A program made the position numbers and the translations under genes. Below, in pieces: positions 242 through 5,994 of a DNA stretch of 8,593 nt. Origin of the DNA: DASVDK01 sp036562265 [NCBI: Thermodesulfobacteriota bacterium]. Lineage in GTDB: Bacteria; DASVDK01. The stretch lies in NCBI GenBank assembly GCA_036562265.1, contig DATCKS010000372.1, positions 1 to 8,593 of the forward strand, given 5' to 3'. The stretch's first letter is position 1; each line of letters begins with the position of its first letter. Below the pieces are notes generated by a model. It was not told the origin of the DNA, did no database searches, and worked only from the letters and a program-made list of their open reading frames with translations.

Positions 242-270
242 TTGACAGGCTGGACGCGTGCCACTAGACT
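242..270 (+). promoter_or_regulatory. Housekeeping-sigma promoter of the leuA leader transcript
   Basis: A consensus -35 hexamer TTGACA (242-247) is followed, after exactly 17 bases, by TAGACT (265-270), which matches four of six positions of the TATAAT consensus. In DNA this GC-rich a perfect -35 with ideal spacing is unlikely to be chance. The expected transcription start is about 277-279, right at or next to the ATG of the leader ORF at 279. The leader peptide would therefore be translated from an essentially leaderless transcript. It is the only convincing promoter ahead of leuA. Confidence 0.75.
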
Positions 271-278
271 GCCGGGCA

Positions 279-398
279 ATGTACGAGCGCCGGTCCCTTC
301 GCACCCTAGCGCTAGGCCTTACCCGGCTCGCCGCGGCGGAGCTAGCCGCGAGCGAGCGCGTTCGGCCGGCGGTGCGGGGGCACCGGGCGGCCCGGTAA
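279..398 (+). CDS. Leucine-rich leader peptide of the leuA attenuator (39 aa)
   Basis: This small ORF runs from ATG at 279 to TAA at 396-398. It begins MYERRSLRTLALGLTRLAAA and has six leucines in its first 22 residues, at 7, 10, 12, 14, 17 and 22. Their codons are CTT, CTA, CTA, CTT, CTC and CTA, and I noticed no in-frame CTA in leuA, where leucine is CTC or CTG. Rare leucine codons clustered in a short ORF between a promoter and a terminator ahead of a leucine-biosynthesis gene are the hallmark of a ribosome-mediated attenuator. The peptide itself probably has no function. There is no Shine-Dalgarno sequence before the ATG, and the predicted transcription start lies 0-2 bases upstream, so initiation is probably leaderless. 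The second half is Arg/Ala-rich and may matter only as RNA. The ORF is too short and too atypical to be supported by homology here. Confidence 0.65.
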   Translation: MYERRSLRTLALGLTRLAAAELAASERVRPAVRGHRAAR

Positions 399-4925: not shown

Positions 4926-4994
4926 GAAGCATCGCGTCGGCGCGGCCCGAGTCTGGCAGCGCTCGCGCGTGGGCGGCGGTGCGGCTGCTGGACT

Positions 4995-5003
4995 TGCTAT
5001 ACT
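4995..5003 (+). promoter_or_regulatory. Extended -10 promoter of the DHH phosphoesterase gene
   Basis: TGCTATACT contains the extended -10 TGn motif followed by TATACT (4998-5003), five of six matches to consensus. No good -35 hexamer lies 16-18 bases upstream, which is common for extended -10 promoters. Transcription would start near 5010, leaving about 20 bases of leader before the ATG at 5032. It would exclude the in-frame upstream GTG at 4969 as the start. Confidence 0.55.
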
Positions 5004-5031
5004 GATCGGCTTGGCTACAGCAGGGGGATCC

Positions 5032-5994
5032 ATGGCATTGCTCTCGCCCGAAGACCTGGACCGACGACCGGTGCGGGTCATCACGCACAACGCCTGCCTC
5101 GACGGCTCCGCGGCGGCGGCCATGGTACGGCTCGCCCTGCCGGGCGGGCCGTTCGAGGTGCACTTCGCCGAGCACCCGGAGATCCCCGACCTGCTCGCGA
5201 AGGCCCATCCGGGCGGGCTCCTGTTCTTCCTCGACCTCTCGACGCCCGACCCGGGCGCGCTGGCGCGCCTGGCCGAGCTGAACGCGAAGGGGACGCGCGT
5301 GATCTGGCTCGACCACCACCAGAGCGCCATCCCCCTCCGCTCGAAGGTGCCGGGGCCGCTCTTCCACGTGGAACTGGTCGAGGGCGTTTCGGCGACGCGC
5401 CTCACGTTCGACTACCTGCGCCAGGTGGTCCCGTCGCTCGAGTCGGCCCGGATCCTGGCGGACCTTGCCGACGACCGCGACCTCTGGCGCAACACCGACC
5501 CGCGCAGCGAGGCGCTCTCCGACGCCATCGGGCTCCTCGGCAGCGAGGCGACGTTCGACGACCTCTGCCAGATGCCGGCGCTCGGCCGCGTCCCGGACCG
5601 CCTCGCCCAGGCGGCGGCCAAGGCGCAGGCACGCAAGCAGGAGGCGATCGCCCAGGCGAAGGCCGGACTCGTCGTGCGGCCGGTCGACGGCACCGGCATC
5701 GAGGTCGCCGTCGCGCCGTGCGACCGCTACGCGAGCGACGTGGGACACGCGCTCGGCGCGCCGAACCGTCTCGTCGTGCTCGCCTCGCCCTCGCGCAAGC
5801 GGTTCTCGATGCGCGGGCCGGGCGAGCCGCCGCTCAACGCCGCGACGCTCACCGCGCGACTCGGCGGCGGCGGCCACCCGCAGGCGGCCGGCGCTCCCTG
5901 GCCGAACCCGACGACGCTCGAGGATCTCGCGGACACGATCGTCGCGCTCGTGCGCGAGGAGATGGCGCGCGACGGCTCGGACCGGAAGTCGTAG
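5032..5994 (+). CDS. DHH/DHHA1-family phosphoesterase (NrnB-like)
   Basis: The 320-residue protein belongs to the DHH superfamily of manganese-dependent phosphodiesterases, whose members cleave short oligonucleotides, cyclic dinucleotides or related phosphoesters in the cytoplasm. In order it shows THNACLDGSAAAAM (18-31, motif I of the HxxCxDG type), FLDLSTPD (66-73, motif II), WLDHHQSA (92-99, the DHH motif) and LADDRDLW (145-152, motif IV). The C-terminal DHHA1 glycine motif LGGGGHPQAAGA (277-288) binds the nucleic acid or nucleotide. Motif I is the form seen in NrnB-type proteins rather than in RecJ or NrnA/PAP phosphatases, so an oligoribonuclease or cyclic nucleotide role is plausible but not proven. 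ATG 5032 is preferred because it follows the promoter at 4995-5003 and an AGGGGG at 5022-5027, though the 4-base spacing is short. It appears to be transcribed on its own or to lead the genes that follow. Confidence 0.85.
   Translation: MALLSPEDLDRRPVRVITHNACLDGSAAAAMVRLALPGGPFEVHFAEHPEIPDLLAKAHPGGLLFFLDLSTPDPGALARLAELNAKGTRVIWLDHHQSAIPLRSKVPGPLFHVELVEGVSATRLTFDYLRQVVPSLESARILADLADDRDLWRNTDPRSEALSDAIGLLGSEATFDDLCQMPALGRVPDRLAQAAAKAQARKQEAIAQAKAGLVVRPVDGTGIEVAVAPCDRYASDVGHALGAPNRLVVLASPSRKRFSMRGPGEPPLNAATLTARLGGGGHPQAAGAPWPNPTTLEDLADTIVALVREEMARDGSDRKS

Follow-up and report, generated by a model that had tools for sequence, protein, structure and literature searches.

The window, by which we mean the whole analysed stretch of 8,593 nucleotides, contains a leuA gene preceded by a promoter, a short leucine-rich ORF with a marked codon bias, an intrinsic terminator and two complementary strands, all of which can be read directly from the DNA. 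The features are as follows.

242–270, + strand: sigma-70-like promoter, −35 TTGACA at 242–247, 17-nt spacer, −10 TAGACT at 265–270
277–279, + strand: predicted transcription start, 0–2 nt before the ATG, deduced from the position of the −10 box
279–398, + strand: leader ORF of 39 codons, ATG 279–281, TAA 396–398, MYERRSLRTLALGLTRLAAAELAASERVRPAVRGHRAAR
287–386, + strand: predicted leader hairpin (“1:2”, anti-antiterminator), e.g. 290–305 with 371–386
297–344, + strand: putative control codons CTT 297, CTA 306, CTA 312, CTT 318, CTC 327 and CTA 342
361–374, + strand: antiterminator 5′ strand, inside the ORF directly past the last Leu codon, 13 of 14 positions Watson-Crick paired with 480–493
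476–517, + strand: intrinsic terminator, stem arms 476–484 and 499–507, followed by TTTTTCGTTTTT
480–493, + strand: antiterminator 3′ strand, overlapping the terminator 5′ arm
536–543, + strand: leuA Shine-Dalgarno sequence GAGGAGGT, 8 nt before ATG 552
552–2105, + strand: leuA, 2-isopropylmalate synthase with a LeuA_dimer domain

The LeuA_dimer domain occupies residues 371–500 of the protein. Farther downstream, positions 4969–5994 encode a DHH/DHHA1-type phosphoesterase-like protein with a weak family match.

Promoter, leader ORF and leucine codons

A preliminary description of this DNA had proposed a TTGACA/TAGACT promoter with a 17-base spacer placing the transcription start within about 2 nt of an ATG, and these elements are present where they were said to be. 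The promoter is the sole sigma-70-like site in positions 1–1000 on both strands (shuffle mean 0.0), and a search of the entire window for TTGACA-N17-TANNNT with up to two mismatches returned this one site, with no mismatches, at a chance expectation of 1.56. The start is predicted 0–2 nt before ATG 279 because the −10 box ends 8 nt upstream of that codon; the first T of TANNNT lies 14 nt upstream of the ATG, compared with about 12 nt in the accessible text of PMC3160421. No Shine-Dalgarno sequence precedes ATG 279, as the same description had it, in contrast to the strong one in front of leuA. Three in-frame starts exist in the leader frame, of which GTG 258 lies in the promoter spacer and GTG 372 past the Leu codons, and therefore only ATG 279 gives a reading of the Leu codons from this promoter. 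Three observations thus speak for a leaderless ORF: the spacing between −10 box and ATG, the lack of a Shine-Dalgarno sequence, and leaders of like construction that are conserved in the nearest Chloroflexota class (see below).

The control codons of the ORF are for leucine, the amino acid whose synthesis leuA serves. Six Leu codons occur among its first 22 (codon 7 CTT, 10 CTA, 12 CTA, 14 CTT, 17 CTC and 22 CTA), so that the earlier counts of six leucines and three CTA codons were exact, and five of the six are rare: CTA and CTT make up 5/6 of the leader Leu codons (CTA 3, CTT 2) versus 5/267 in the seven large genes of the window, where CTT accounts for all five and CTA for 0/267. CTA had been suspected to be missing from leuA, and it is indeed absent from all 31 Leu codons of that gene. 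No ORF that starts at ATG and has six Leu among codons 1–22 arose in 5000 dinucleotide shuffles of 271–475, and a single shuffle (1/5000) had three CTA in the fixed frame, both tests being run after the ORF had already been picked out. The Leu codons are scattered and form no run, and the window leader fails the filter of six L/I/V residues in ten that the leaders of its relatives pass. The first two CTA codons are spanned by a perfect 12-nt palindrome, CCTAGCGCTAGG, at 305–316, and four of the six CTAG sites in the window fall within 264–345.

The strong intrinsic terminator that stands between the leader ORF and leuA was not mentioned in the preliminary description, nor was the antiterminator strand inside the ORF. 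According to folding of the ribosome-free RNA, this strand (361–374) is sequestered by pairing with the Leu-codon region in the leader hairpin. As calculated, the leader hairpin, the antiterminator and the terminator compete with one another as the three pairings in a trp/leu-type attenuator do.

Ribosome position and the competing RNA structures

The switch was quantified as the cost of opening the terminator 5′ arm for each ribosome position in RNA made to position 492, where the 3′ arm is not yet present. In a simple model this cost was 2.8 kcal/mol without a ribosome and 8.5–14.8 kcal/mol with the ribosome front edge at 308–362; from 374 on it was mostly 2.3–4.9 kcal/mol, with a stray value of 6.7 at 386. 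A full-footprint model, in which the ribosome covers 30 nt and the RNA behind it is free to fold, gave 10.5–12.9 kcal/mol at codons 9–11, with the maximum of 12.9 when the first CTA (codon 10) was in the A site, and 8.9 kcal/mol for the second CTA (codon 12). The other Leu codons were weaker at 3.5–6.7 kcal/mol (5.1 for codon 14, 6.1 for codon 17 and 3.5 for codon 22), and the non-Leu codon 24 gave 9.3 kcal/mol, which we count against the attenuator reading. From codon 26 on the cost was at most 4.4 kcal/mol, and at the stop codon it was 2.7.

For control, the leader was shuffled 300 times with the terminator arm kept, the state past the codons being taken at 392, 400 and 408. The observed switch of 5.0 was matched by none of these dinucleotide shuffles (mean −4.2, best 1.3), while the mean stall-state cost alone was as high as observed in 6/300. 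The Escherichia coli leuL leader, included as a positive control, gave 8.2–8.3 with the front edge at 44–50 nt, where the ribosome is on the CUA run, and at most 4.2 elsewhere.

In the full-length ensemble the terminator was more stable by 25–29 kcal/mol at every ribosome position, and an equilibrium test with the terminator forced or forbidden in the full-length RNA showed no dependence on ribosome position. Only the calculation preceding synthesis of the terminator 3′ arm shows the switch. Since the terminator always wins at full-length equilibrium, the switch must be kinetic and depend on which strands pair first as the RNA is made, in line with the accepted view of classical attenuators. 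Dependence on ribosome position is in this sense a calculated property: an antiterminator that excludes the terminator according to where the ribosome stands is obtained in the nascent RNA, and not at full-length equilibrium.

In the mechanism we propose, RNA polymerase would start no farther than about 2 nt from ATG 279. A ribosome would load straight onto the 5′ end of the transcript and translate the ORF. When charged leucyl-tRNA for CTA and CTT is scarce, the ribosome would wait at codons 10–14 and open the leader hairpin, releasing 361–374, which could then pair with 480–493 as soon as these are made and be kinetically trapped as the antiterminator. With its 5′ arm occupied the terminator would not form, and the polymerase would continue into leuA. 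When leucine is ample, the ribosome would proceed to the TAA and the leader hairpin would re-form behind it; if no ribosome has loaded, that hairpin should already be present. In either case the terminator would be expected to form and leuA to be off.

Probable kinship of the window and leaders in the nearest class

In a quick LeuA tree, which left out 33 Paenibacillus and related rows, the window fell in a group with 12 rows; one Chloroflexota class (referred to as the nearest class) contributed 11, and the twelfth came from a single genome belonging to another class. The group had an SH-aLRT of 98, no bootstrap and a long branch of 0.58, and other LeuA rows of the nearest class fell elsewhere in the tree. 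The downstream acyl-CoA dehydrogenase, compared over 44 genomes, was also closest to the nearest class (67% and 66%), followed by other Chloroflexota (65% and 63%) and Ignavibacteriota (61%). From these protein comparisons the window, whose source is an uncultured bacterium, probably belongs to the Chloroflexota, in or near the nearest class, and probably not to the Actinobacteria.

No close relative of the window LeuA was found in the collections compared. Its top identity against genome contigs was 59% (among the best 80 of 149 matches), against 201 and then 400 evenly drawn Chloroflexota genomes it was at most 57% over the full length, and against 64 genomes of a Latescibacterota-like phylum at most 59%. 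Among 110 genomes of the nearest class, complete hits reached at most 62% over residues 2–386, and one LeuA piece at a contig end matched at 65% over residues 1–309. At five of the loci found (L112 and L114–L117, in genomes G315, G318, G320, G209 and G317) the 62% match covers only residues 1–386, and these proteins may lack the feedback domain or have another one. Queries with LeuA and Hsp33 against viral contigs gave no match. With the leader DNA as query, the 110 nearest-class genomes gave no homologue spanning the leader; short matches of 20–85 nt on both strands appeared in 43 of them (best E 3.4e-6), and we read these as chance similarities in G+C-rich DNA.

In the nearest class leuA mostly lies behind ilvB and/or ilvC in ilv-leu operons, and therefore that class offers no directly orthologous counterpart to the window leader. 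The starts of these operons were analyzed instead of a wider and looser leader scan, which had given many matches in ordinary coding DNA. From 86 LeuA matches 77 upstream regions were analyzed and nine left out, and 53 operon heads were counted, namely 52 in which a near-complete ilvB start was preceded by 250 nt or more and one, L214, before leuA (loci L142, L145, L146, L148, L149, L162, L163, L167, L168 and L173–L219). An ORF with at least six branched-chain residues in ten, followed by a terminator, was present in 39 of the 53. Among these 39, 28 had TANNNT 8–11 nt before an in-frame ATG (24 cases) or GTG (4 cases), versus 2.9 expected from shuffling, so that 28/53 heads carry a leaderless-type branched-chain leader with a terminator; the members of the class are related, and therefore the counts are not independent. 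A Shine-Dalgarno-like sequence was seen for 2 of the 39. A −35 box with five of six bases was found in 8/28, and none was recognisable in the other 20. In 27 of the 28 the calculated stall-dependent cost exceeded both other states by at least 2 kcal/mol. In other Chloroflexota classes, where a head could be examined in 38 of 43 regions and the terminator limits were slightly laxer than within the nearest class, an ORF with a terminator was seen in 4/38 and a −10 box in 0/38.

Examples of the nearest-class leaders are MTYGVVVLVLLVGLLLIRSGAARLRPRRVHK and MATSARTLVLLLGLLGLIGFGRTGARAN, and L214 is exceptional in the class by having its own leaderless leader, MTSSARSLVLISDLLAIVQAGARAT, directly before leuA. 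Like the window leader they have the −10 box 8–11 nt before an ATG or GTG, no Shine-Dalgarno sequence, a terminator and a calculated stall-dependent switch. Unlike it they have branched-chain runs (LVLLLGLLGLIG...), an antiterminator strand near the stop codon, and no CTA; their 188 Leu codons are CTC (71), CTG (57), CTT (57), TTG (2) and TTA (1), with CTA at 0/188. An alignment of 21 members showed an invariant GGGGGC strand after the control codons and a nearly invariant GCCCCC partner; it gave no net covariation support (covariation term +0.47) because the antiterminator pairs CGGGGG/CCCCCG hardly vary. As the window peptide is different and its matches are short and scattered, we do not call it a homologue of the Chloroflexota ilv leaders. 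The window leader shares their build, which does not prove descent from a common leader.

Known attenuators and alternative readings

In E. coli, leuL has four consecutive CUA codons and a transcribed 5′ UTR. With the leuL leaders of E. coli and Salmonella typhimurium the window shares Leu control codons that include the rare CUA, and an antiterminator and an intrinsic terminator before leuA; the calculated profile of terminator-arm blocking along the stall positions is also the same as for E. coli leuL. It differs by its six dispersed Leu codons and by an ATG at the predicted 5′ end. The preliminary description had set classical enterobacterial leaders, with their own ribosome-binding sites, against a leaderless leader sensing rare codons. 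The rare codon is no part of that distinction, as CTA also marks the enterobacterial leu leader, with four CTA codons in E. coli leuL; changing CUA to CUG in the S. typhimurium leu leader lowers its sensitivity (Carter et al. 1986, as described in the part of PMC1183508 at hand).

Leaderless amino-acid attenuators had further been held to be better known from Actinobacteria, and this stands for Streptomyces and Corynebacterium glutamicum; they are not confined to that phylum, as in Sinorhizobium meliloti trpL the leader ATG forms the very start of the attenuator RNA (available portion of PMC7298713). This non-actinobacterial case resembles what is predicted for the window, and it differs in having Trp codons and in preceding trpE. 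Streptomyces lividans LeuL1, MRFGLLLLSCRGEGL, is a leaderless leader ahead of leuA without a typical terminator (excerpts of PMC8079986), and the actinobacterial LEU element has been modelled as a pseudoknot with pairing to the leuA Shine-Dalgarno sequence (excerpts of PMC1262725). With these the window has in common a Leu-rich leader peptide directly before leuA, which in LeuL1 is likewise transcribed leaderless; unlike them it has a terminator and an antiterminator, no pairing to the Shine-Dalgarno sequence, and a longer peptide. For the C. glutamicum ilvBNC operon, as in the calculations for the window, three competing hairpins, anti-antiterminator, antiterminator and terminator, are given in the accessible sections of PMC11857589. 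That leader belongs to another operon and another phylum, and differs from the window in its short peptide and few control codons. It was reportedly described by Morbach in 2000 as a leader peptide without a ribosome-binding site.

For the Chloroflexi, leaderless genes were earlier predicted at about 4.7% in 4/12 genomes (the portion of PMC3160421 consulted). Among the open-licence matches listed we found no description of leader-peptide attenuators or leaderless attenuation in Chloroflexi or Chloroflexota. The mechanism is thus known from the leu operon of E. coli, and leaderless leaders ahead of leuA from Streptomyces, and it is the combination in Chloroflexota that we have not found in print among those matches. 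As a mechanism the proposed attenuator is ordinary and well supported by calculation, and the host group is new as far as the literature searches reach.

Leu-rich ORFs before leuA were also noted elsewhere. Five loci of Thermoleophilia (L034, L035, L040, L072 and L076) have Leu-run leader ORFs, with TANNNT 7–10 nt before the start codon in 4/5 and a Shine-Dalgarno sequence in 0/5, and the ORFs of L034, L035 and L072 end in RGE. Four loci of Planctomycetota (L007, L013, L021 and L024) have Leu-rich ORFs all ending in LALRG; in E. coli leuL, too, the Leu run is followed by LRG. A G-rich antiterminator strand may be the reason why the RG recurs. In L012 (Kiritimatiellia) a Leu-rich ORF follows TTGACC-N18-TAGAAT, with an ATG 10 nt later and a terminator, making it a candidate leaderless leuA attenuator.

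Taken as it stands, the window is in our judgement likely to hold a trp/leu-type ribosome-mediated transcription attenuator with a leaderless leader peptide, a reading that comes from one sequence for which no homologous leader was found. The proposal of a leaderless leucine attenuator is in this way well supported by computation, in that a terminator and mutually exclusive pairings tied to ribosome position are present and leuL behaves alike. Against it count the dominance of the terminator at full-length equilibrium, the scattered Leu codons, the stray 6.7 kcal/mol at front edge 386, and, among the relatives, the absence of CTA, the 20/28 leaders with no recognisable −35 box and the missing covariation support. 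It is unlikely that the attenuator is genuine and its leader peptide not leaderless, the RNA starting farther upstream or arriving by read-through and the ORF being initiated without a Shine-Dalgarno sequence on a longer 5′ UTR. The transcription start in the window is a prediction, and no T-rich terminator was reported between the end of the upstream ORF at 126 and position 242, which would suit such a transcript; against it, the only promoter match in 1–1000 places the start at the ATG, and the conserved leaders of the nearest class keep their −10 box 8–11 nt before the start codon. We give considerably less weight to a DNA operator, in which the palindrome CCTAGCGCTAGG and the clustered CTAG sites would bind a leuA repressor and the CTA codons would be a by-product. 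The perfect 12 nt at 305–316 and the gathering of 4/6 CTAG sites in 264–345 are what one would look for in an operator, but all three CTAG sites within the ORF share their frame with the CTA codons, both CTT codons are equally rare and yet lie outside the palindrome, and the geometry of terminator and antiterminator goes unexplained.

Slightly less probable again is a chance ORF, where the terminator belongs to the upstream region, leuA is driven from elsewhere and the Leu codons are meaningless. ORFs of 39 codons are common at such a G+C content and there is a single sequence to judge from, but codon bias, promoter position, antiterminator match and the outcome of the shuffle controls would all have to coincide, and the interval from the terminator to leuA yielded no further promoter. 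T-boxes occur before leucine or branched-chain genes in other phyla. A leucine T-box, or an actinobacterial LEU element whose Leu run pairs with the leuA Shine-Dalgarno sequence in the absence of a terminator, is nevertheless hardly credible here: the LEU element does precede leucine or branched-chain genes in another phylum (PMC1262725, in part), but the window gave no Rfam match at gathering scores and no bacterial family at E up to 10, and a terminator is present before leuA. The search for a T-box or another Rfam leader family returned nothing but a mir-341 match that stayed below the cut-off and is put down to chance, and the LEU element was rejected for want of a Leu run and of any CCTCC, CTCCT or ACCTC in 279–398 to pair with the leuA Shine-Dalgarno sequence.

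The class-wide set of leaderless branched-chain attenuators is a more interesting finding than the window leader. We lean towards the view that the whole Chloroflexota class runs its branched-chain operons by leaderless-transcript attenuators in which the distance between −10 box and start codon is part of the sensor, the window being a leucine-only, CTA-reading offshoot in which leuA became separate from the ilv operon and acquired, or retained, a leaderless leader for itself. Terminator-based leaderless amino-acid attenuation would then extend to Chloroflexota, and offer a natural case where initiation free of a Shine-Dalgarno sequence must keep up with RNA polymerase from the first nucleotides. 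The class would supply many switches that can be compared with one another for the co-evolution of start-site spacing, control codons and antiterminator, and in the window a high-G+C genome appears to reserve CTA almost only for sensing leucine.
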